Source: Idiomarina sp.
GTDB taxonomy: Bacteria > Pseudomonadota > Gammaproteobacteria > Enterobacterales > Alteromonadaceae
DNA length: 64,000 bases
Direction: 5' to 3'
NCBI GenBank assembly: GCA_020832105.1
Contig: JAFIFH010000052.1
Span: 1-64,000, forward strand
The notes below the pieces were generated by a model, which was not told where the DNA came from, made no database searches, and saw only the letters and a list, made by a program, of their open reading frames with translations. The position numbers and the translations under genes were made by a program. Every line of letters begins with the position of its first letter. Positions within the stretch are counted from its first letter, which is position 1. Positions 1,376 through 55,655 of this stretch are shown one piece after another.

Positions 1376-4300
1376 TTATCGCTCAATAGTATAGAAGAGA
1401 TCGGCACCACTCTGCTCATTGCCGGTGCGGGACTCAAAATTTAGATTGTCAGTGAGTCTGTATTGGATGAAAAATGTAGAAACAGGCTCAACCAGGCCCA
1501 CGCCATATTTGATATAAAGCCGTGATGAGAGTTGCTTGCCGATATACAGAGACGTTGACTCGAAGGTATCGCCAGAATCCAGGCTGATTTCATCAACTCC
1601 GAACGTGTCCGACAGGCGCTCACCTAATCGATTACCACCACTCATGCCTAGCGCGAGGGTCGCTCGGGCCAACATATTCTGTTCACCAGTACTCCCTTGC
1701 CCCGGTCCTCGACCGAATATCAGGTAAGACAATATTGCACTGTCCTCCATACTTGGCGTTGAGAACAAGTTCAGCGTCGGGTTTTCAAGCGTCCCACCGA
1801 CGCGAGCGCCCACTGTCACACTCTGAGCATCGATATTTCTTTCAACGCGCAGGTCCAGCCCTGGGTTCGCCACAGGCCCACCGGTGAAAATAAGTCGGCC
1901 ACGCTCAATATTCAATGCCTGACCGTAAATTTCATACACACCGGACGCAACGTCGATGTTGCCAACCCCAGCGGTTTCCTGGCCACTTCTTTCAATGATG
2001 CGCAACTGACCTTCCAGGCGGCCTTCAAACCCAAAGGCACTAACCTGAACATCGTCGCCGAGGACGACGTTTAGATCCATATCGATTGGCAACGCACCGA
2101 GGCTTTGGTCGTAAGGGCCACCTTCACCACCCACTAATACTGTATCGCTGGACACTGTGTCTACGGTTTCAATATCTGGTGGTGTAATCCGAGCCCGTGG
2201 CACTTGTACGTCCCCTCGCAAGCGAAGCAGTTCAGGGGTATATTCAATCTCCAGATCAGGCGCAATAGTCACTTGCAGATCGCGGGTGTTTAACGCTGGA
2301 AAAGCGGCTCCCTGAATCGCCAGCACCGCGCGCTGCTCGCGCAGGTAGTATTCACCATTCAACGCAAGTTGACCTTCACCTGCGTCAACTGAGCCTTCAA
2401 GCACAAAAGGCGCTTCATTAGTTTCAGGTGCCGCAATCATGACGTTCAGGTTTCTGAGTTCGAGACCCGTGGCTGGAATTTCGGCAGAGCCGTCTCTCAA
2501 CTCAACGCCCCCTCCTATGCTGAGATCATCAAAGGCTCCGTTAAAATCAATTCGTCCGTTTAAGTGCCCGGTCATATTCTGAATATCGGGCGCTAACACT
2601 GAAATCAAACTGAATGAGCGTATATCGATACCCAGCTCACCATCTATCCGACGATCCTCAGCAAGCGCGTTACTAAGCACTGCATTTGCCTCAACACCCC
2701 CTTCCAGTTGTTCGGAGAGTATTCGTAACTGCATCTCCAGTGTTTCCTGATCTCCCTGAATACGTAGTAGTTCACCACCATCAAAGTCTACGCGAAGTTC
2801 TTGCGCTGGTACCCGCACTGACGTATCAGTAATATTGAGGCGGATATCAGTAGTGAGTTGCTCAGCGACGCGATCAATGTTGGCAACAAGGCTAAATTCC
2901 CCTAATAGTTGAATATCGTCTGGGATCCAAGGGTTAAACAACTGATAGGGCACGTCTTCAGCGCGCACAGCCAGATGTATATCACCACTCTCTGCTGCCC
3001 AGCGGCCATCAGCACACAGCTGCGACTCGCGAGTACTGATAATGAGACAGAAATCACCAAGCTGAGCCTGTTGTGGTGACACCAGCAAGGTTGCCGGGTT
3101 ACTCAAATTCCATCTGCCAATGTCAGGGTAGCGCAGTTGCATGCGGTGCAGCTCACCTTGCCATGCTTGCTGTTCGAGATCCCAGATGCCGCGTAATGCG
3201 AGTCTGGCTTGCAGGTCTCCATAATCGATGTCAGCTTCAACGGTGTGCTGTTCGTTTTCGCGCATACGTACATCGATGCTTTCAACCAGCTGATCGTTGA
3301 CCTGTAAATGCCGAATTCTGATATCGCCCACAGGCAGAGTCGCTAAGGTGCCGTCGATCTCAACGTTTATGGCAGACTCCTCTAGCTGGTAAACGTCCCA
3401 GCGAAAATCGTTAACGTTGAGCTCAAGTTGTAATCGAGGTTGCGACTGGGAGCCTACGACCTGCCCCCGTGATTGAATGCGGCCTTCACCGTCGGGTAAT
3501 AAGTTTGCCAGATTCGGGACATCAACCAACCAGGTCAAGTCTAAGGTGTCCGGGCTGTAGTGACCGTCAGCCTGAATGGTTGCGTCGCCCCAGACAATAT
3601 CGATGCTATCTGCAGTGAAGGTGTCACCCTGCACTCTGAGTTCACCCTGCCCAGCGATACTGTGCTCGAAAATATTGCCGCTCAGCTGACCGATATTGAC
3701 GTACAGTTCAAGAATTTCATCGAGCTGGCCTGTGGTCAGCAACTCAAGAGCAAGTTCACCCTGTAAGTTTTCATTCAGGTCCGCAAGGTTGACCTCACTC
3801 AGCTGAACCGCCAGATCCCAGCTTAAATAAGGCTGCCACAACAGGCTGCCGCTAATCTCTGCCTGGCCTTGTGGAATATCGAGGGAGAGGGTTAAATCTT
3901 GCGCACCGGTCTCATCACCTGTCGCGCGTAATGAAAACTCGCTGACAGTAAAGCCGAGGATGTCTGCGTAGCCGCGGATATCAACATCAAGAATATCGCC
4001 AAATGCGGCAGTCCCTTCGATTTCCACATAGGCAGGGCGGTCTTCAAAATTGGCTTCTAACTCATGGATGACTAGCTGCATATCCTGCCATGCCAGGTGC
4101 CCGCTTAGATCAACCAGGCCATGTTCAACCGTTTCAATATCACCATCCAGTATTACCTCGAAGGTTTCTAACGATCCCTCACTCTGAATAGCCACGGATA
4201 AGGCTCTGACCTGTTCATACAGGGCGTCATGGCGGACTGCGTCAAGCTGTAAACCTGCCTGCCAGGTCAACGCATCAATCCGTAACAGATCGTCCACTCG

Positions 4301-5047
4301 CGCCGTTAGCTCGGCATCAGCGAGGCCTTCGCTCACTACTTTGACATGGAGAGTATCTAAGTCCCCGTCAAGGTCGGCCTGAACGTTCAGCTGATGAAGG
4401 TCCGGTAGTGACAGTGAGCTTTGCACGGAAAGATTCAGCGGATAATTAGCGCGGGTTTCGATTACACCACTTGCGGTCACTTCGCCTTCTTCTATCCGTA
4501 CTAAAAGGTGCTCAATATGTTGCTCATAACCGCGGCTTTCAGCCACAAGTTCGATGCGCTCGATATGCTGTGAAAAGGTGCCAATCTGTAGGTTAATATT
4601 ATTGAGGTGAACCCGATCAATCAGCACATCTACTGGCAAGTTTATATCCACTAGCTGGAAGTCGGCTTGCTGATCATCTTCGTCCTCAACGGTCGAGGGC
4701 TCGAAGTTTACTACCATGGAGGCAAATTCGAGGTTTTTAACGTGAAGTGTATTCGCTAGCAATTGCCGTGGTCGCCAATCAACAAGCAGTTGCTCGATTT
4801 CGAGACTCAGGGTCTGGTCTGCATAAGTCACTCGCTGCAGCGCTAGTTCGCCGATTAAGCTGCCATGCTGATGCTCAACTACCAGTTCACCAGGCGCGAA
4901 TCGCTCAGCCAGATTCAGGGTGACGCGGGTGCCGCGCTCAGTACTTACAAGCAACCCGATCAAGATTATCAGCGACAATAAGAAGATTAGGACACCAGCC
5001 AAAAGAATACCCGTGGTTCGTCCTGCGCTGCGCCAGTCTATATTCAT
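1376..5047 (-). CDS. tamB: Translocation and assembly module subunit TamB
   Basis: Inner-membrane-anchored, periplasm-spanning partner of TamA. TamB-type (AsmA-like) proteins form a long beta-taco groove linked to outer-membrane protein assembly and phospholipid transport. One N-terminal membrane segment (about residues 10-33) is followed by more than 1,100 residues of repetitive beta-rich sequence. The conserved TamB C-terminal domain (DUF490) occupies about the last 350 residues and ends in a beta-barrel-like FIQYRLTDNLNFESRTG stretch. At 1,223 aa it is close to E. coli TamB (1,259). Its ATG overlaps the tamA stop by 4 nt, implying coupled translation. It is the last gene of the heme-TAM operon. 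Confidence 0.93.
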   Translation of the reverse strand: MNIDWRSAGRTTGILLAGVLIFLLSLIILIGLLVSTERGTRVTLNLAERFAPGELVVEHQHGSLIGELALQRVTYADQTLSLEIEQLLVDWRPRQLLANTLHVKNLEFASMVVNFEPSTVEDEDDQQADFQLVDINLPVDVLIDRVHLNNINLQIGTFSQHIERIELVAESRGYEQHIEHLLVRIEEGEVTASGVIETRANYPLNLSVQSSLSLPDLHQLNVQADLDGDLDTLHVKVVSEGLADAELTARVDDLLRIDALTWQAGLQLDAVRHDALYEQVRALSVAIQSEGSLETFEVILDGDIETVEHGLVDLSGHLAWQDMQLVIHELEANFEDRPAYVEIEGTAAFGDILDVDIRGYADILGFTVSEFSLRATGDETGAQDLTLSLDIPQGQAEISGSLLWQPYLSWDLAVQLSEVNLADLNENLQGELALELLTTGQLDEILELYVNIGQLSGNIFEHSIAGQGELRVQGDTFTADSIDIVWGDATIQADGHYSPDTLDLTWLVDVPNLANLLPDGEGRIQSRGQVVGSQSQPRLQLELNVNDFRWDVYQLEESAINVEIDGTLATLPVGDIRIRHLQVNDQLVESIDVRMRENEQHTVEADIDYGDLQARLALRGIWDLEQQAWQGELHRMQLRYPDIGRWNLSNPATLLVSPQQAQLGDFCLIISTRESQLCADGRWAAESGDIHLAVRAEDVPYQLFNPWIPDDIQLLGEFSLVANIDRVAEQLTTDIRLNITDTSVRVPAQELRVDFDGGELLRIQGDQETLEMQLRILSEQLEGGVEANAVLSNALAEDRRIDGELGIDIRSFSLISVLAPDIQNMTGHLNGRIDFNGAFDDLSIGGGVELRDGSAEIPATGLELRNLNVMIAAPETNEAPFVLEGSVDAGEGQLALNGEYYLREQRAVLAIQGAAFPALNTRDLQVTIAPDLEIEYTPELLRLRGDVQVPRARITPPDIETVDTVSSDTVLVGGEGGPYDQSLGALPIDMDLNVVLGDDVQVSAFGFEGRLEGQLRIIERSGQETAGVGNIDVASGVYEIYGQALNIERGRLIFTGGPVANPGLDLRVERNIDAQSVTVGARVGGTLENPTLNLFSTPSMEDSAILSYLIFGRGPGQGSTGEQNMLARATLALGMSGGNRLGERLSDTFGVDEISLDSGDTFESTSLYIGKQLSSRLYIKYGVGLVEPVSTFFIQYRLTDNLNFESRTGNEQSGADLFYTIER

Positions 5048-6804
5048 AAGTCAGGCCCCAAGGTTAAGTGCAGACGAACATTATCGCCTTCTGGCCCGAA
5101 CCCATGTGCGAGGTCAATACGGATAGGGCCGACCGGGCTTTGCCAGCGAACACCGAAACCCACACCATGGCGAGTTGCTGAAGTTATGTCATCAAATGCG
5201 TTACCAGCGTCCCAAAAGGTAGCGACCCGCCAGTTCGGACGGAATTCATAGTCGACCTCGGCGCTTCCCACCATAATATGGCGGCCGCCTAACATGATGC
5301 CTTCTTCATTGCGTGGTCCGACTGTGCGGTATCCATAACCGCGGATACTGTTGTCACCACCAGCGTAGAATCTTAATGAGGTAGGGATGCGTTCAAAATC
5401 GCTGGCGACTGTCGTACCAAGTTCAGCGCGGGTCAGCATTCGGAAGCGCTCAGCGAATGGCCATACATATTTGCCCGACACATTGACCTGGGCAAAGTCA
5501 GTACTGGAAAGAATGTCCTCGGACGCGCCGCGTATCGTCAGGGTGGTGCGGTAGCCTTCACGCACATTCAGGCGGTTCGGTGTGTGTACTCTGTCCCATT
5601 GAACACTAGGAATTAAAAATTGGGTATCACGACGTTCGCCCCCAAAGGTGTCGCGTTCGTCTTGCCAATCCAACGCAACGGTACGCTGGGTTCGCTCTAA
5701 CTGATGTTGCCAGCTAACCCCTAAATTAAGCAACTCGGATCGGGTTGTACTGGTATCTTCATCGCGCCAGGCAGCGCGCAATACATATTGATCGGTTTGT
5801 GGTTGAGCACCGGGAATAATATAGTTTGTGCCGACAGCTGAGATCTGTTCTGAAAATTGAAACTGAGCATTAAAGCGGTGGCCGCGGGTATTCACCCACC
5901 GGCGATTCTGCTCAAAAATAACCCGGGCACCCGTATCAGTTCCGTAACCGATACCTGCTCGGTAATGGGTCCGCTTGTTAGGCTCAACAGAGATCGAAAC
6001 CGGTACGATTGCATCATCGTCCGCTTCGCCCCAAATCGGCTGAATTTGTACGCGACTAAAGTAATTACTGTCTGACAGCGCCATCTGCAGCTCCACCAGC
6101 TCATCAGAGGAAATGTAATCGCCCTCTTCAAATTGTACAAAACGCTGCAGAATGTCGTCGTCGAGCTGCGAGTCACTAAATATAACGCGGCCGAACCGAT
6201 GGCGTTGGCCGGAATCAAAGTCGAGGAAGATATCCGCGGCATAATCTTCTAAATCAATGCGTAACACACTACTTTCAAAACGACCGTTTCGATAACCTCT
6301 ATCCGCCGCAAGGCTGCGAATGCGGCTTTTAGCATTTTCGTAGTTGCGGTGGTGCAGGTTCTGCCCGGGCTGGATATTCAGGTCCTGAATTAAACGGCGA
6401 AAGGCGTCATCGCCCTCTGCATCGCCACGAATCTGGATGTCGACCTCGCGAATTTGCATCGTGGCACCAGGATCGATGCGATAGGTTAGTCGCCATTCAC
6501 CATTTAAGCGTTCAAATTCGGTATCAACACTGGCTTGATAGTGGCCTGACGGGGCAAGCGCACGCAATATCTCTTGCTCTGCCCGCCGGTGCAGATAACG
6601 CACGCGTGCGGGCCCAGGGGAAGGTTGTTGGTGATATGCATATATTGACAAGCGATTACGAACGTTGGTTAGTTGCTGCCCGCTGATACCTTCAATCCTG
6701 ATGGTTAGTTGGGGACGCTCTTCGTCACTATCATCCTGGTCAAGCGCTACAACGACCCCAGAAAACAACCATAGGGCAGCGCTTAACAGCAGCCAATTGC
6801 GCAT
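5044..6804 (-). CDS. tamA: Translocation and assembly module subunit TamA (Omp85 family)
   Basis: Outer-membrane barrel protein that works with TamB to insert certain outer-membrane proteins. It has a signal peptide (residues 1-20), a POTRA region (about 25-270) and a C-terminal 16-strand-type barrel (about 270-586). The Omp85 signature is visible as SIRGYGYRTVGP. Length (586 aa) matches E. coli TamA (577). The gene lies only 15 nt after hemY with no terminator, so it is probably cotranscribed with the heme genes, and it overlaps tamB by 4 nt. Confidence 0.92.
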   Translation of the reverse strand: MRNWLLLSAALWLFSGVVVALDQDDSDEERPQLTIRIEGISGQQLTNVRNRLSIYAYHQQPSPGPARVRYLHRRAEQEILRALAPSGHYQASVDTEFERLNGEWRLTYRIDPGATMQIREVDIQIRGDAEGDDAFRRLIQDLNIQPGQNLHHRNYENAKSRIRSLAADRGYRNGRFESSVLRIDLEDYAADIFLDFDSGQRHRFGRVIFSDSQLDDDILQRFVQFEEGDYISSDELVELQMALSDSNYFSRVQIQPIWGEADDDAIVPVSISVEPNKRTHYRAGIGYGTDTGARVIFEQNRRWVNTRGHRFNAQFQFSEQISAVGTNYIIPGAQPQTDQYVLRAAWRDEDTSTTRSELLNLGVSWQHQLERTQRTVALDWQDERDTFGGERRDTQFLIPSVQWDRVHTPNRLNVREGYRTTLTIRGASEDILSSTDFAQVNVSGKYVWPFAERFRMLTRAELGTTVASDFERIPTSLRFYAGGDNSIRGYGYRTVGPRNEEGIMLGGRHIMVGSAEVDYEFRPNWRVATFWDAGNAFDDITSATRHGVGFGVRWQSPVGPIRIDLAHGFGPEGDNVRLHLTLGPDL

Positions 6805-6819
6805 ATTACACCTTTTTAG

Positions 6820-7980
6820 TTACGGCTGAGCCGCTTCGCGATAGGCATCCAGAGCTGGCTGGCTTTGCCCGGACGCCAGATAGGCATCACCGAGTAAACG
6901 ATAACGGTCCGCTGACGGTTGAATCTGAATAGCATGGCGCAGTGCTCGTTGAGCAAGGTCCTGGTCCCCTTGTTGGAGGGCGACACTGCCAAGCAGTGTT
7001 AGTGCGTCCGCATCATTCGGTGCTTGTTTTACATGACCCTGAATGAACTCGCTCAATTCCCCCTGCTGTTGCCAGTTTAGTGTACTTGAGGGGTGGATCA
7101 AGTGAGAAGCAGACAGCGAATTTTTACGTAATCCTTGCAGAATCACCTTCTCAGACGCACCGTAGTGGCCAGACTGCTGCAGCGCACTTGCGTATGCTAC
7201 ACGCGGTACTGCGCGTAGTCGCTCTTTTTTCGGTAGATCTTGCCAACTACGATGGAGCTTTTCAATGCTTGGCGAGGCAGCCGCAAAATAGGCCTCATAC
7301 ACAAATACCCGGTATTGATGCAGTCGTTCAGCATCAACCAACTCATGTTTATCGAGTAACGGTAACAATTCAAATAACGGCTGCCACTGCTGGTGCTGGT
7401 AAAAAATTTCAGCCGCAATACGTTTTACCCCGATATGGTCCGGGTATTGTTGTAGCAGGTTCTTCGCGTTGGTGACTGCGGTAACGGGTGCAGCGCGCTT
7501 CGCATGGTGCAGTTGCAGCGCCAGGCTCTGCTCGTCACGTTCCGCAGCTGCCTTTTGTAACAAGCTTTGTTTCGCAACAACATCGCCGTGCTGCTCTGCG
7601 GCAAGCGCTGCCATTAGATAAGCCTGTTCCTTGTCCGTTGTATAATGGGCGGCATCCTCGGCGTCACGCTGTGCTTGCTCATAATTAGCCGTCAGCAAAT
7701 GATTACATGCATTGTTCATAAGCTGGCGGGCCTTCCTTGCTTTGCGTCGGCGAGACCAGCGCATGCTCATGCGGGTGCCACCACTAATTTTACGAACCAG
7801 CCACTCAATTAACCAAAGCAGGAAAATCACCAGCAGAATACTCAGTGCCAGCACCACTAGACTAGTTTCCAGGGTGTAACCCGCGATTGCGATGAGCACG
7901 TAACCGGTTTGCCCCGAAAGCAGGGGGCCGACAATAAAGCCAGCAACAATAATGAGCAGCAAAATCAGTGCTTTAGCCAC
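6820..7980 (-). CDS. hemY: HemY-type TPR membrane protein
   Basis: Inner-membrane protein encoded after hemX in many gammaproteobacteria; its role is ascribed to a late step or organisation of heme synthesis but is not firmly defined. It is not the protoporphyrinogen oxidase of Gram-positives with the same name. Two N-terminal membrane segments (about 3-23 and 37-60) are followed by a basic linker and tetratricopeptide-like helices. The C-terminal TPR reads ALRHAIQIQPSADRYRLLGD. It starts with GTG, sharing one base with the preceding TAG stop (TAGTG), which implies coupling to hemDX. Confidence 0.9.
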   Translation of the reverse strand: MAKALILLLIIVAGFIVGPLLSGQTGYVLIAIAGYTLETSLVVLALSILLVIFLLWLIEWLVRKISGGTRMSMRWSRRRKARKARQLMNNACNHLLTANYEQAQRDAEDAAHYTTDKEQAYLMAALAAEQHGDVVAKQSLLQKAAAERDEQSLALQLHHAKRAAPVTAVTNAKNLLQQYPDHIGVKRIAAEIFYQHQQWQPLFELLPLLDKHELVDAERLHQYRVFVYEAYFAAASPSIEKLHRSWQDLPKKERLRAVPRVAYASALQQSGHYGASEKVILQGLRKNSLSASHLIHPSSTLNWQQQGELSEFIQGHVKQAPNDADALTLLGSVALQQGDQDLAQRALRHAIQIQPSADRYRLLGDAYLASGQSQPALDAYREAAQP

Positions 7981-45394: not shown

Positions 45395-45431
45395 AAAGCC
45401 CTGTATCAGTTCACTGATACAGGGCTTTTTT
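45395..45431. terminator. Bidirectional terminator after the YfcC-like gene
   Basis: AAAGCCCTGTATCAGT/ACTGATACAGGGCTTT is a perfect 16-bp stem with a 2-nt centre, followed by a T-tract. It separates the plus-strand transporter from the end of the aroK-dam-rsmJ operon. Confidence 0.94.
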
Positions 45432-46755
45432 AATAGGCTTGTTTGATATAAATGTCGAAGCGATGTTTCTTGCTAGTGACCTGGGCATGCGGCTCGCGGT
45501 TAGCTAAGAAAGGTGCCTTCGCTGGGCGTTTGACCACCACCCGGTGGGTTGCCAGGCCAAGTGCAGCGTCCAGTAAGGCGTTGCTATCTTGATCGTTACC
45601 CACCAGCTCCTGCAACATCTGCATGTCTTTTTTAACCGCTGCAGATTTATCCCGGTGAGGGAACATCGGGTCTAGGTAGATCGCCATCGGCGGTCGGGTC
45701 ATTAGCTGGGCGGCATAGGCTGGCTCAAGAATACTCCCTGCAGGGAGCACTCGCACCCGTTCACTAACCCAAGGGCCGATGTGAGCGTCGTGACTGGCTC
45801 GGTACACTGCATCACTTAACAGCGCATGAATGGCTCGATTACGCTCAAGGAACCTCAGGTTACAGCCTGCGTGCGCAAGAATCATCCCATCCCGGCCAAG
45901 GCCGGCTGTGGCATCTAAAATATCCGGGCGATGACCTTTTTGAATACCCAGAGCACGCACAATGGCTTCATCACGCTGTGGTCCCGCCTGACGCCGCCAG
46001 GCTTGTTTACCGCCAGTAAAATCTAACACTAGCGGATTTACTTTAGGGTGATGCTGCCAGCGCAGTTGCAGGCCTTCCTGAGTCAGCTCCAGCACAAAGG
46101 GGTGTTCATTTGCACCTTCTGGCAGTTGCAGCTCTTGAGCTAAATGCAGCGCCGCTGGCGCCAACTCTGGATCGCCTGCCAGCAACGCAGGTAACTCCGT
46201 TTGAGGGATAGATTTAGGTTCAGCCGTATCGCTTGAAGCTGCTGGATGCGTTGGCTGGCTGTGGTGCGCCGCTGACAAGCGCATGTCCTGATGAGGAATA
46301 TTATCTTCCAGGTATTCATGCCCTTCATCGACAAAGCCGAGGGAGTGATAGAAATCAAGCAGGTAAGTCTGCGCACCAATTAATATATCGGTGTCAGGGT
46401 CAGCGGCAAAGGCTAACTGCATCGCCCTGTGCATCAGTTGGCGACCGAGTTGCTCGCCGCGGGCCTTAGGCGCGACAATCACCCGGCCAATGCGATGCGC
46501 ACCGTGGCTGGCGCCATGGTTCAGTGTGGTTGTTTGCTGATCATCATTCAGCGCAGCGAATACCCGGGCATAAGCCACTAAATCACCATCAACATAGCCC
46601 ATGACATGCAGTGCCAGGTGGTCTTCGCCATCAGCGTCCTGATAAGGACATTGCTGCTCAACCACAAAGACCTGCTGGCGCAGGGCCAGGATCTGATAAA
46701 GCTCATCCAGGCTCAGGGCGGTGAAAGTTTTACTGTACCAACGTAGTTTGCTCAT
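45430..46755 (-). CDS. elaA-rsmJ: ElaA-RsmJ fusion: GNAT acetyltransferase + 16S rRNA m2G1516 methyltransferase
   Basis: Residues 1-160 match ElaA, a GNAT acyltransferase: LRQQVFVVEQQCPYQDADG, then IGRVIVAPKARGEQLGRQLM (acetyl-CoA loop) and GAQTYLLDFYHSLGF. A Ser/His/Pro-rich linker (about 161-190) leads to RsmJ (about 190-441), which methylates G1516 of 16S rRNA. The RsmJ SAM motif is DATAGLGRDG (281-290); YLDPMFPHRDKSA and VVVKRPAKAPFLA are also diagnostic. In E. coli these are separate, unlinked genes. It follows dam by 12 nt, ending the operon. No stop or internal start signal separates the domains. Confidence 0.93.
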   Translation of the reverse strand: MSKLRWYSKTFTALSLDELYQILALRQQVFVVEQQCPYQDADGEDHLALHVMGYVDGDLVAYARVFAALNDDQQTTTLNHGASHGAHRIGRVIVAPKARGEQLGRQLMHRAMQLAFAADPDTDILIGAQTYLLDFYHSLGFVDEGHEYLEDNIPHQDMRLSAAHHSQPTHPAASSDTAEPKSIPQTELPALLAGDPELAPAALHLAQELQLPEGANEHPFVLELTQEGLQLRWQHHPKVNPLVLDFTGGKQAWRRQAGPQRDEAIVRALGIQKGHRPDILDATAGLGRDGMILAHAGCNLRFLERNRAIHALLSDAVYRASHDAHIGPWVSERVRVLPAGSILEPAYAAQLMTRPPMAIYLDPMFPHRDKSAAVKKDMQMLQELVGNDQDSNALLDAALGLATHRVVVKRPAKAPFLANREPHAQVTSKKHRFDIYIKQAY

Positions 46756-50335: not shown

Positions 50336-50854
50336 TTAAAAACCGAGCTTCTCAATGATTTGAGTTGCTACAACTTTAGCACTTTGATCATCAGTTTCTA
50401 CCACCACGTCCGCAATTTCTTCGTAAAGCGGATCGCGAAATTCAGCCAGATCTTCGAGTACTTCCCGCGGATTTTCAGCTTCAGCAATCAACGGTCGGCG
50501 TTTGTCTCGCTCGGTCCGCGCCACTTGCTTGTCAATTGTGGTTTTCAGATATACCACAATGCCGCGAGCCGACAGCCGGTTACGGTTTTCTTTACTCACA
50601 ATTGAGCCGCCACCGGTGGCCAGCACAATACCCATATGCTCTGTGAGCTCTTCGATAACTTTCTCTTCACGCGCACGGAAGCCTGCTTCACCCTCAAGCT
50701 CAAACACCCAACTAATATCCGCACCGGTGCGTTTTTCAATCTCGGCGTCAGAATCAAAAAATTCAAGGTGGAGCGAGCGTGCGATTTGACGGCCAATGGT
50801 GCTTTTACCAGCTCCCATCGGGCCTACAAGGAATATATTACGTTTTTCAGCCAT
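50336..50854 (-). CDS. aroK: Shikimate kinase I
   Basis: Phosphorylates shikimate at the 3-OH with ATP. The P-loop GPMGAGKST is at residues 11-19; [23 protein letters not shown] and LATGGGSI bind shikimate, and [10 protein letters not shown] is the lid. I start at ATG 50854 (172 aa; E. coli 173). The track's extra 13 residues have no family match. It is the first clearly essential gene after the pilus-like pair upstream and may share their transcript, with 109 nt between. Confidence 0.96.
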
Positions 50855-50963
50855 ATCTTTGTTTACTTCACTTTCATAGCTGTGACTCACCAAAAGAAAC
50901 GAGTGTTTTTAATTAGCACCCCTGAACTTGCAAAAAAGACACGGGATTATGGCAAAAATAGGG

Positions 50964-51734
50964 CTAAAGGGCAACCGTAAAGGATTCACCCTGAGGACAG
51001 GAGGGAGACGCAGCATGCCAGCGAAATTCAACGGATTCGCTACCAATTCGCAACAATTGCCACGAATATTCGAGCATTTGGTTAACTGCCAGGCGTTCGC
51101 TACGACCATTGAAGATGATCTGAATATACCCTCTTGAAGGCCATACTGCCTGCACAGTCATGTCAGGAAATACAGCAACCTGGCAGTCGCGACCATGGTC
51201 TGCGGTGGTTGCCGGTGTGCGCTCATCGGGCTCGCTTAACGCTATCGGCTGGGCACTATTGTCTTGATATCTACCGGGGGCAAGCTGCAGCTCCATGGTA
51301 ACTAGCGGTGCGTCATTCGCAGCTCGAGTCCAGCGTAACTGATAGTTTTGTGGTGCCAGATTACTTTGCGCTATCTGGTTAGTGAAGGTAGCGAACGCAC
51401 GCCAATTGGCAGAGAACGTTAGGCTAAAGCTTTCCCTTTGTTGAGTCATCGCGGGGCTTTGCAACTCACGCATGAATTCGTATAGCATCGCGCTACTTAA
51501 AGCGGGTAGCCTGGGCGCCGCCGGTGAATTGTCGATGGCGCTGACCGGGGTAGTTGGCATAGCAACTGGGAGAGGCTGGTTATGATGCCGCCAATACTGA
51601 TGAGCAACCACCAGCAGCGCACCTGTCAGTGTGGCGGCCGTGACCGCGCGGCGAAGCTTGCGTGGTAGATGAAGCCAGGCGCTCAATAATGGAGTAAGCC
51701 ATGGCAATTTAAACACCCAGTCAGTCGTTAGCAT
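50964..51734 (-). CDS. PilO/PilP-like (HofO/HofP-like) membrane protein
   Basis: Not recognised as a standard family. The 256-aa product has a membrane helix (about 28-45), a central domain of PilO-like appearance (about 75-160) and a C-terminal beta-rich segment with PSRGYIQIIFNGRSERLAVNQML, reminiscent of PilP/HofP domains. Its start overlaps the upstream stop (TAATG), so it is coupled to the PilM/PilN-like gene. It lies between mrcA and aroK, exactly where pilMNOPQ or hofMNOPQ occurs. The role is inferred mainly from location and architecture. Confidence 0.55.
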   Translation of the reverse strand: MLTTDWVFKLPWLTPLLSAWLHLPRKLRRAVTAATLTGALLVVAHQYWRHHNQPLPVAMPTTPVSAIDNSPAAPRLPALSSAMLYEFMRELQSPAMTQQRESFSLTFSANWRAFATFTNQIAQSNLAPQNYQLRWTRAANDAPLVTMELQLAPGRYQDNSAQPIALSEPDERTPATTADHGRDCQVAVFPDMTVQAVWPSRGYIQIIFNGRSERLAVNQMLEYSWQLLRIGSESVEFRWHAASPSCPQGESFTVAL

Positions 51735-52903
51735 TATTGATGAAGCTCTAAGTCAATGTGAGTTAAGCCGTTGTCACTTCGGCTTGCGCTGGTCAGGACT
51801 CGCCAGGGAGATCTCGACAGCTCGGTGGGTTTATCTTCCGGCCATAGGTTCAAATATTCACCCAGCTCAGTTATCCAGGCGTCAGCGACACCAGGGTTTT
51901 GCGCCTGTATCTGCAATACCCAGCTATCACGGCGAAACTCCAATCGTTTCACTTCAACCTGACGGCCGTTTAGTGCGTGTAGCTGTTGCCAAATATGGGC
52001 ATGGGTAAATAGCGGGTGAACCGGAAGTGGAGTCGCCTGAGGAGCGGCGGCAAGCCCGGTATCAAGCGGTATGGGCCGGTCCATTGCCTGCCAGCTCCAG
52101 GCCACCCCAATAATCAGCAGCGCGCTCAGGGTGGTGGCACTCTGAATAAAAGCGTTTCTATATTGTGTGGTGACCCGGGCGACCAGGTTATTTGCCAGAT
52201 TCACCGGTTGGCTCAAGCCTGTTTGCTGCGCAGTGCTCTCGCTCTTGGCGAGATATTTGTTTGCAGACTGTGTGTTTAAAACGCTAAGTACCGCTTGTAG
52301 CTGACTATCACTGAGCCAGGGCCCGCAGATATCCGTCGCCTCAGTGCCAGGTGTTGTACTGTCGGCGATCAGCATCATTAAACGTTTTCTGGCTATCCCG
52401 AGACGCTGAAGAAACCCCTCGACCGTCGCAGTTTCAATTAAGGTCACAGCGTAAGACGCTGCGTGCCCGTCACCCTGGCTAATCTTAGTCGCGTCCCATA
52501 GCCAATCTGTTAGGGGCGAAAAACCCTGCTGTTGCAGTGCCCAGGTTAATGTTGGACCGATGTCCTGGGGCGCTAGGTCCGCAGGGGCAGAGATACTCAC
52601 CCGGGTAAAACTCGCCGCTGGTAAAATAATTGTAATGGGGGCTGAACTTTCTAGCTGGGCGAGTATCCTATGAATGTGAGAGAGAGTAAGTGACTGGGTT
52701 AAAGACGAAGTAATGCTTCGGCTACCCAGTCTTTTTTTTGCCTGTTGATTATGATGCTGTGTCCCGGATGCTGCGCCCGTCGCTGGTATTCCAAGGGTGA
52801 CCACATCCGACCCAATATAGATCACTGCATGAATTCGCTTTGCAGAAAAATTTTTGCTCAGGTTTACAATCTGTTGCGTCCATAATCGTGGAACTTTTAG
52901 CAT
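51734..52903 (-). CDS. PilM/PilN-like fused (GspL-type) membrane protein
   Basis: The 389-aa product has a cytoplasmic N-terminal half resembling the PilM/HofM actin-like fold (IHAVIYIGSDVVTLGIP, then ITIILPAASFTRV and an ADSTTP segment), one membrane helix (about 253-274) and a periplasmic PilN-like part (WQQLHALNGRQVEVKRLEF). This layout equals GspL, or PilM joined to PilN. The nucleotide-binding residues of PilM are not evident. AGGA lies 9 nt before the ATG. It is divergent from mrcA as hofM/pilM is in other gammaproteobacteria. Assignment is inferential and rests on position and topology. Confidence 0.58.
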   Translation of the reverse strand: MLKVPRLWTQQIVNLSKNFSAKRIHAVIYIGSDVVTLGIPATGAASGTQHHNQQAKKRLGSRSITSSLTQSLTLSHIHRILAQLESSAPITIILPAASFTRVSISAPADLAPQDIGPTLTWALQQQGFSPLTDWLWDATKISQGDGHAASYAVTLIETATVEGFLQRLGIARKRLMMLIADSTTPGTEATDICGPWLSDSQLQAVLSVLNTQSANKYLAKSESTAQQTGLSQPVNLANNLVARVTTQYRNAFIQSATTLSALLIIGVAWSWQAMDRPIPLDTGLAAAPQATPLPVHPLFTHAHIWQQLHALNGRQVEVKRLEFRRDSWVLQIQAQNPGVADAWITELGEYLNLWPEDKPTELSRSPWRVLTSASRSDNGLTHIDLELHQ

Positions 52904-53078: not shown

Positions 53079-55655
53079 ATGAGGCTCGCCTTGAAGTTAA
53101 TTAAATACCTGTTGGTTACCATTGCTCTCCTTACGCTGTTAGGGGTCGGAAGCCTGGTCGCTTTGTATTATTACGTTAAGCCCGATTTACCGAGCGTGGA
53201 AACGATACGCGACGTGCGCCTGCAAGTGCCGATGCAAGTCTACACGGCTGACGGTAAGCTGATTTCTCAGTTTGGTGAACAGCGCAGAACCCCTTTGCGG
53301 CTGGACGAAATTCCACAGCAGCTGATCGACGCTATCATCGCCACCGAAGACAGCCGCTTTTATGATCACTTTGGTATCGACCCGATAGGTGTTGGCCGTG
53401 CGGGTATGGTGTTACTCACAACTGGCGAAATCAGAGAAGGTGCGAGCACCATTACCATGCAGCTGGCGCGCAATTACTTTTTGACTCGCGAGCGCGCCTG
53501 GATGCGTAAAATCAAAGAGGCTTTTATTGCGCTGCACATTGAAGAGCAGCTGAGTAAAGACGAAATTCTTGAGCTCTACCTGAATAAGCTGGCGTTAGGT
53601 CAGCGTGCGTATGGTGTAGGTGCAGCGGCGGAGGTTTATTATGGGCGCAGCTTACATGAGCTGACGCTGGCTGAAATCGCAACCATTGCAGGCCTGCCTA
53701 AGGGCCCTTCGATCTTAAACCCTATTTCAAATCCGCCTGCGTCTGTGGAGCGCCGCCGCATTGTACTGCGGCGTATGCTTGATGAGGGCTATATAACCCG
53801 CGAAGAATACGATGTGGCGTTTAATGCGCCGGTGACCGCGCGTTTGCATGGTGCCACCATTGAAGTGTCGGCACCTTACCTGGCCGAAATGGTGCGCAAT
53901 GAGATGGTCGAGCGTTACGGTGCCGAAGAAGCCTATACCGGTGGGTATCAGGTGTATACCACAGTGTCGTCAACACATCAGTTGGCTGCAGAACGCGCGC
54001 TGCGTGACAATCTACATGCATATGATGAGCGCCATGGGTATCGGGGTCCGGTGAATCGATTGTGGGGCGAGCTTGCACAAACTGAGCTTGATATTGATGA
54101 GTCAGCAATGACTGTAGGTATCATTAACCCTGAAACCATGGCAATTCCAGAGGCTCGCGGCAATGACCCTTGGTCGACAGACGAGATTGTGGCGTATTTG
54201 CGTCGACAACCCGTGTATGGCCCGCTCACACCTGCGGTAGTCACGCAGGTGGGTGAGCGAGAGGCACAGATTGTGCTTCGGGGCGGTCAGCAAACGACTT
54301 TGAGCTGGGCAGGGATGGACTGGGCCAGACCTTATATTACCGAGCGTTCACAGGGCCCGGCACCGCAGCAGGCCAGTGATATATTGACTGCGGGCGATCA
54401 TATTTGGGTGCGACGTGAAACGGATGACAGCGATTACAAGCTTGCGCAAATACCTGCCCCAGGTTCAGCAATGGTGGCGATGCATCCGCATAATGGTGCG
54501 CTGGCGGCTGTAGTCGGTGGCTACAGTTTTCAGATGAGTCAGTACAACCGGGTGGTGCAGGCTAAGCGTCAGGTCGGTTCAACGATTAAACCTTTCATTT
54601 ATGCAGCAGCGCTGGAAGACGGATACACCTTATCGACCATCATGAATGACGCGCCGATCACCCAGTGGAACCCGGGTTCCGGCTCGGCCTGGCGTCCGCG
54701 TAACTCCCCAGAAGTGTATGATGGCCCTATCCGCCTGCGTAAAGCGCTGGCGCGATCTAAGAACGTCGTCTCAGTACGTTTGATTCGTTCAGTTGGCGTG
54801 GACCGCACCGCTGATTTCATGCAGCAATTTGGCTTTGACGAAGCGGATATTCCGCGCAATGAGTCTTTGTCCTTAGGTTCCGCCTCCTTTACTCCGCTGG
54901 AGCTGACACGTGGCTTTGCAGTGTTTGCTAACGGCGGGTATCTGGTAGATCCGCATTTTATCGCCCGGGTGGAAACCATCGAAGGTGAGGTCCTTGAAGT
55001 TGCCAGCCCTGTGTATGCATGTGCTGAATGTCGATCGCAGGAGCTCTATGAGGACTGGTGGGAACACGAATTGCCGCAAGCGCCCAGAGTACTGAGTGAG
55101 CAGACCGCATTCTTAATCAGTGATGGCCTGACGTCGACGATTTGGGGCGGCGGTAGCTGGCCAAATCAAACCGGTTGGAATGGTACCGGCTGGCGTGCGC
55201 AGTCATTAAGAAATCGCAATATTGCAGGTAAAACTGGTACCACCAATGAGGTCAAAGACGCCTGGTTTGTGGGCTATGGTACCGGGATTGTGGCGACCAC
55301 CTGGGTTGGCTTTGATAACGTTGAGAATGCCTTAGGTAGCGTGACCTTAAACGCAAACCTGGGCCGCGATCGGCAACCCATTGTCGGCTCTGAAGCCGGT
55401 GCTACGACCTCATTGCCTGGTTGGCTAAGCTTTATGAGTGAAGTGATCGATGATTTCTCCACCGAGCCATTTCAGTTGCCCCCGGACGTTGTGTCGGTGC
55501 GTATAGATGATGATACCGGCATGCTGAGTAACCAGTCCGGGTATACCAGCTTGTTCGAGTACTTTTTACGCGGCACTGAACCGACCGAGTTTGTCGATAG
55601 CGACGAAAGTTCGCCGCGCCTGTTCGAAGACAGCGACGACGAGTTGTTTCGCTGA
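53079..55655 (+). CDS. mrcA: Penicillin-binding protein 1A
   Basis: Bifunctional peptidoglycan glycosyltransferase/transpeptidase anchored in the inner membrane. It has an N-terminal membrane helix (about 9-30), GT51 domain (ATEDSRFYDHFGID with catalytic Glu, GASTITMQLARN, AYGVGAAAEVYYG), an OB-like inserted domain and the transpeptidase domain. Transpeptidase motifs are STIKPF (SxxK serine), SKN and KTGTT. Length 858 aa matches E. coli PBP1A (850). It is transcribed away from the pilus-like genes, and REP elements begin 7 nt after its stop. Confidence 0.96.
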   Translation: MRLALKLIKYLLVTIALLTLLGVGSLVALYYYVKPDLPSVETIRDVRLQVPMQVYTADGKLISQFGEQRRTPLRLDEIPQQLIDAIIATEDSRFYDHFGIDPIGVGRAGMVLLTTGEIREGASTITMQLARNYFLTRERAWMRKIKEAFIALHIEEQLSKDEILELYLNKLALGQRAYGVGAAAEVYYGRSLHELTLAEIATIAGLPKGPSILNPISNPPASVERRRIVLRRMLDEGYITREEYDVAFNAPVTARLHGATIEVSAPYLAEMVRNEMVERYGAEEAYTGGYQVYTTVSSTHQLAAERALRDNLHAYDERHGYRGPVNRLWGELAQTELDIDESAMTVGIINPETMAIPEARGNDPWSTDEIVAYLRRQPVYGPLTPAVVTQVGEREAQIVLRGGQQTTLSWAGMDWARPYITERSQGPAPQQASDILTAGDHIWVRRETDDSDYKLAQIPAPGSAMVAMHPHNGALAAVVGGYSFQMSQYNRVVQAKRQVGSTIKPFIYAAALEDGYTLSTIMNDAPITQWNPGSGSAWRPRNSPEVYDGPIRLRKALARSKNVVSVRLIRSVGVDRTADFMQQFGFDEADIPRNESLSLGSASFTPLELTRGFAVFANGGYLVDPHFIARVETIEGEVLEVASPVYACAECRSQELYEDWWEHELPQAPRVLSEQTAFLISDGLTSTIWGGGSWPNQTGWNGTGWRAQSLRNRNIAGKTGTTNEVKDAWFVGYGTGIVATTWVGFDNVENALGSVTLNANLGRDRQPIVGSEAGATTSLPGWLSFMSEVIDDFSTEPFQLPPDVVSVRIDDDTGMLSNQSGYTSLFEYFLRGTEPTEFVDSDESSPRLFEDSDDELFR

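Follow-up and report, generated by a model that had tools for sequence, protein, structure and literature searches.

Between mrcA and aroK, where E. coli carries hofMNOPQ (order mrcA-hofMNOPQ-aroK-aroB-damX), the window, a stretch of 64,000 nucleotides, has the same flanking order and only two open reading frames, p389 and p256. This raises the question of what these two proteins are, and what a pilus-assembly locus without its secretin could still do. The two frames overlap as TAATG and occupy the pilMNOPQ position, as the earlier note had described; mrcA lies upstream and is divergent, and aroK, aroB and a DamX-like gene follow downstream (Table 1). In agreement with that note, the ORF list of the window contains no secretin ORF between mrcA and aroK. 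The host genome (3.03 Mb, 77 contigs, 93% complete) has Aliidiomarina soli, A. sedimenti and A. maris as its nearest named species, and literature searches brought up no work dealing with these genes in Aliidiomarina. Elsewhere in the window, a 441-aa ORF (45430-46755) fuses a GNAT acetyltransferase domain to a SAM methyltransferase domain (PF04445).

Table 1 Features of the condensed locus, the pilABCD cluster and the topA-adjacent secretin regions.
Feature	Source	Position	Strand	Remarks
mrcA (PBP1a)	window	53079-55655	+	conserved left neighbour; Pfam
p389	window	51734-52903	-	389 aa; PilM-like + membrane helix + PilN-like fusion, GspL-like layout
PilM-like cytoplasmic domain, ~half of full PilM	window, p389	52229-52843	-	residues about 21-225; secondary structure
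PilN-type 'NLA' segment and following membrane helix	window, p389	52088-52210	-	residues about 232-272
PilN/GspL-type periplasmic ferredoxin-like domain	window, p389	51737-52021	-	residues about 295-389
p256	window	50964-51734	-	256 aa; membrane helix + PilO/GspM-like + PilP-like fusion
PilO/GspM-like ferredoxin domain	window, p256	51270-51494	-	residues about 81-155
PilP-like beta-domain	window, p256	50967-51185	-	between two cysteines (C184, C246)
aroK	window	50336-50860	-	conserved right neighbour
pilA	window genome, contig C17 (L169)	3905-4456
pilB	window genome, contig C17 (L169)	4456-5559		367 aa
pilC	window genome, contig C17 (L169)	5552-6754
pilD	window genome, contig C17 (L169)	6782-7645
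topA-adjacent secretin region	window genome, L061	8726-10704
Reduced topA-folD cluster	L188	6842-9365
Reduced topA-folD cluster	L190	10320-12843
Reduced topA-folD cluster	L191
Reduced topA-folD cluster	L201

The AF2 model of p389 from the genus alignment (mean pLDDT 69.8) consists of a PilM-like half-domain, a long helix (residues 236-273) and a C-terminal αββαββ domain, in the order helix-strand-strand-helix-strand-strand. Foldseek analysis of this model revealed PilM chains as the top matches, including P. aeruginosa PilM 5eox (E 3.4e-5), as well as cyto-EpsL 1yf5 (E 6.1e-5), the XcpY periplasmic domain 6ghu (TMt 0.69) and further XcpY/PulL C-terminal domains. The PilM-like part aligned over 165-185 columns with PilM chains of about 350 residues; the actin-like PilM fold is present, at only about half its extent. 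Model and structural matches agree with the PilM + TM + PilN layout first read from the letters. The 'NLA' segment aligns with separate N proteins of the genus that begin MLNLARP, and of the 13 N and six NP proteins 10 and five, respectively, have a PilN-type start motif ahead of the membrane helix, the 'VNLA' of the window being recognised by eye. The traits of PilN (N-terminal NL(L) segment, single TM, periplasmic ferredoxin-like domain) are thus present, with a weak match at the level of sequence profiles. The PilM_2 profile (PF11104) matched neither p389, by hmmscan, nor any other protein of its own genome, no family of Pfam or NCBIfam was matched by p389 or p256, and hmmsearch of PDB sequences with the MN profile returned nothing meaningful.

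The corresponding model of p256 (mean pLDDT 78.2) comprises a helix, an αββαββ domain and a six-strand domain with its strands within residues 192-255. The top relevant Foldseek matches were the PilO chain of 3jc8, the PulM C-terminal domain (TMt 0.69) and PilO 2rjz, none of them below E 0.001, and no PilP structure was found among the top 50 matches. The PilO/GspM trait, a ferredoxin-like domain after one TM helix, is present. Orthologues of p256 match Pfam T2SSM (5.4e-5), HofO (0.063) and HofP, and the OP profile scored 14.4 bits against E. coli HofO and 7.2 bits against HofP, scores reached by 0 of 400 shuffles in either case; among PDB sequences hmmsearch with this profile detected GspM only (E 0.04). 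The proposed TM + PilO + PilP layout is supported by the model, Foldseek, the orthologues' Pfam matches and the HofO/HofP scores. The last domain, with its strands and Cys pair, is a putative PilP-like beta-domain of the Cys-bracketed, PilQ-binding kind, and the PilP-type Cys pair is present in all 52 canonical PilP, in all three Idiomarina proteins and in 18 of the 19 Aliidiomarina proteins. In one genome, G001 (L042 1021-1635), the OP reading frame is missing the first of these PilP cysteines and appears frame-shifted at its C-terminal end. pTM was low for both models (0.43 for p389, 0.38 for p256); the predicted domains appear credible, the predicted domain arrangement does not.

The mrcA-aroK interval was read in all 19 Aliidiomarina genomes, the window genome included. 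Relatives of the locus were found by synteny, since a protein search with p389 in 61 genomes hit only five other than its own, in one case weakly and at a different place in the genome. Every Aliidiomarina genome has a condensed locus. Three ORFs (M, N and OP) are found in 11, MN and OP in two (the window genome and A. maris), and M and NP in five; in the NP protein the start and helix of PilN continue directly into the PilP-like domain, PilO having been lost. In G011, a single-contig genome, M and NP lie in one 355-aa ORF (L052 1156-2223) with a PilM-like domain, a PilN-type helix and a PilP-like domain, the sole pil gene left at the site. PilO and PilP are fused in 13 of the 19. An assembly artefact as the source of the M-N fusion was ruled out by A. 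maris, a separately sequenced isolate with the same fusion (L048, 377 aa). On the mrcA+aroK tree each condensation step fits one event, with one branch of the M+NP clade weakly supported (56). The collapse of the five-gene set into fused, fast-diverging proteins, proposed earlier from the window, extends over the whole genus; it proceeded stepwise, not in one event. A related condensed locus at the same site in 18 of 18 other Aliidiomarina indicates that p389 and p256 are more than chance ORFs.

Outside the genus, full pilMNOPQ is present at this site in Pseudidiomarina and other Alteromonadales genera. Idiomarina carries M, N, a fused OP and a 432-aa secretin (L089, L090, L092, about 4680-7890), and hhalign related the short secretin to PilQ (7e-97), N to PilN (2.9e-4) and OP to PilP (1.5e-4). 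Since Idiomarina is sister to the complete Pseudidiomarina on the mrcA+aroK tree, its reduction is independent, O-P fusion and shrinkage happened twice, and Idiomarina was dropped as a direct intermediate.

Search of the genomes for the rest of the machine recovered pilB, pilC and pilT throughout Aliidiomarina, with pilA-pilB-pilC-pilD at the nadC-coaE site in 19 of 19. PilB is reduced to its catalytic core: it is 326-409 aa long, compared with 565 aa for the full protein, to which it aligns from near residue 170-200, so that the N-terminal domains are missing. The two CxxC motifs are absent as well. Its best family is TIGR02538 (366 bits in the window genome, below the family cut-off of 676); a loss of PilB, as this cut-off would imply, was dropped because the short pilB sits at the pilABCD site. 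PilB conforms to a strict P-loop pattern in 17 of the 19 genomes, and its MxGEIRD motif is found in every one of them. PilT is encoded once per genome in all 19, including genomes without an MshL-type secretin, and no second PilT-family protein above the cut-off (PilU) was detected in these genomes. PpdD- and HofC-like partners are encoded in the window genome, as judged from family matches. Idiomarina PilB is similarly short (420-443 aa; L162, L165, L166), and in A. maris nadC is separated from pilA by two additional ORFs (L178 2456-3933). Among family members, PilB above the TIGR02538 cut-off is missing in G021, G023, G024, G028, G029, G032, G033 and G034, and the three of these that were read at the mrcA-aroK site (G021, G024 and G029) all carry the complete set of five pil genes there.

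Selection was estimated from Nei-Gojobori counts for one species pair, A. soli and A. sedimenti. The dN/dS values of M (0.31), N (0.24) and OP (0.28; pooled 0.269, bootstrap 0.19-0.38) revealed purifying selection on all three, which likewise argues that p389 and p256 are more than chance ORFs. These values are about 3.7 times that of pilABCD (pooled 0.073, with pilA and pilB at about 0.02); mrcA reached 0.033.

The absence of PilQ noted in the window holds for the window genome, at the locus and among its own secretins, and for the whole genus (19 of 19). An incomplete assembly as the cause was dropped, since a single-contig genome is among the 19. The window genome encodes four other secretins, all below the PilQ cut-off: GspD in the T2SS operon, MshL in the MSHA operon, a 388-aa protein in the Tad operon, and a 504-aa lipoprotein-type secretin adjacent to topA, whose best fit is the PilN type IVb family (209 of 288 bits, below cut-off). 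As assigned by length, score and place, GspD-, Tad- and topA-type secretins are present in 19 of 19 genomes, and the MshL type is missing from four. The topA-adjacent secretin is older than the genus, being found also in Idiomarina and Pseudidiomarina, and is under constraint (dN/dS 0.089). A type IVb-like cluster occupies the topA-folD interval of 14 species, nearly all of which have genes for an ATPase, a platform protein and a pilin in it, whereas G007, G010, G012 and G013 have only pL, the secretin and a TadE-like gene left there. This reduced form is found in four of the five genomes of the window clade, the fifth being the window genome itself, in which the contig ends after the secretin. 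Shrinkage of the cluster has left the secretin orphaned in this clade, a pattern that amounts to one loss event. In one genome an additional ATPase of the pilus type and a secretin of 695 aa (G008:C14:47729-57350) point to a further pilus or secretion system, not seen in most of the genus.

Taken together, p389 and p256 most likely constitute the inner-membrane alignment subcomplex of a stripped-down, live type IVa pilus or competence-type machine, as predicted from the sequences and models. From what is known of the family, the subcomplex would be connected to the motor and platform, PilB and PilC, through its PilM part and the 'NL' segment of PilN, and the PilP part would reach the periplasmic domains of a secretin; PilP has been reported to connect the inner complex to PilQ (PMC10191384). 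As the machine no longer has a PilQ, its PilP part may dock on the secretin of another system; secretins have been co-opted repeatedly (PMC6668835). The leading candidate gates would be the orphaned topA-adjacent secretin and GspD of the T2SS. That one clade has both a machine lacking its gate and a gate lacking its machine suggests that the two may work together; a link of p389 and p256 to any particular secretin is putative. The identity and liveness of the machine, taken on their own, we regard as highly probable; the borrowed gate lowers the whole reading, a live type IVa assembly core pared to a minimum and served by the secretin of another system, which we favour with modest confidence. 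We infer that a filament is formed, and likewise infer its gate and the function of the machine.

Among the closest known systems, the type IVa PilMNOP(Q) of Pseudomonas and Pseudidiomarina shares with the locus the mrcA-aroK site, the order M-N-O-P, the folds, the PilP-type Cys pair, and the accompanying pilABCD and pilT, whereas in the window PilM is about halved, M-N and O-P are fused, PilQ is absent, and PilB in the same genome is without its first ~175 residues and its CxxC motifs. HofMNOPQ with PpdD-HofB-HofC of E. coli is alike in the site, the small proteins, the HofO/HofP similarity and the PpdD-/HofC-like partners, but comprises five separate genes including the secretin HofQ, which is required for DNA uptake (PMC3330819). 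Filaments of the type IVb and monoderm (Com) kinds resemble it in having fewer inner-membrane partners, a short extension ATPase, or no secretin (PMC10191384), although the Aliidiomarina set is type IVa-derived and belongs to a diderm.

The absence of PilQ from the whole genus also fits a live machine that has no gate at all, its filament being a periplasmic pseudopilus on the inner membrane with a task in the envelope, such as transport of DNA or protein inside the periplasm or cooperation with the cell-wall enzyme of the adjacent mrcA. Retention of the PilM-N-O-P parts despite the loss of the gate is consistent with this, and precedents exist: N. meningitidis pilQ pilT mutants form filaments without a secretin that are trapped in the periplasm (PMC10191384), as are those of Thermus when PilW is absent (PMC13039148). 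However, the putatively secretin-docking PilP-like domain is kept with its Cys pair even in the most reduced genomes, and the retained PilT fits a dynamic surface pilus; we consider a gateless machine unlikely. That a diderm genus would run a gateless type IVa core as a permanent periplasmic filament with an envelope task, one species having its PilM-N-P as a single 355-residue protein, appears somewhat less likely still.

A T2SS- or MSHA-type origin of the two proteins, with L/M/C parts replacing the pil genes at the site, was suggested by profile scores. The OP profile prefers GspM of its own genome (24.0 bits) to PilO (3.0 bits), MshI (9.7 bits) and GspL outscore PilM with the Aliidiomarina M profile, p389 repeats the PilM-like + TM + PilN-like layout of GspL, reached through PilM-PilN fusion, and p256 joins a GspM-like domain to the would-be counterpart of the GspC homology region. 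In addition, hhalign of the Aliidiomarina domains with PilM/N/O/P of the sister genera produced weak matches, insufficient alone, so that the assignment of origin rests on position and fold. Against replacement, the reduced HofO of E. coli is also GspM-like (Pfam 'HofO EspM-like domain') and, with HofP, is scored by the OP profile; the site, gene order and PilN-type start motif are those of the pil genes; in contrast to GspL, M and N are encoded by distinct genes in 11 species; and the gsp operon of the window genome, with its own GspL and GspM, lies on another contig, p389 and p256 being outside it. Replacement is therefore improbable. A decaying relic, in which the loss of PilQ ended type IVa function and the other genes are now disappearing too, had also been offered and is very improbable: M/N/OP shrink stepwise, fuse and diverge fast, and one OP reading frame looks damaged (L042), but pilA, B, C, D and T and the condensed locus are retained in all 19 species, the PilB motifs are conserved, and every part tested is under selection, from M, N and OP (0.27) to the strongly constrained pilA and pilB.

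The type IVa machine of Aliidiomarina, shrunken yet selected, would either borrow the gate of another system or work inside the cell envelope. For filaments to be assembled in N. meningitidis, eight proteins (PilD, E, F, G, M, N, O and P) suffice, PilQ not included (PMC10191384), and natural gene loss in Aliidiomarina appears to have led to nearly this laboratory-defined set, which selection has kept. The genus provides a naturally graded reduction from five genes down to one, which asks what PilM, PilN, PilO and PilP each must do and bears on the sharing of secretins between machines and on the use of pilus motors inside the envelope.
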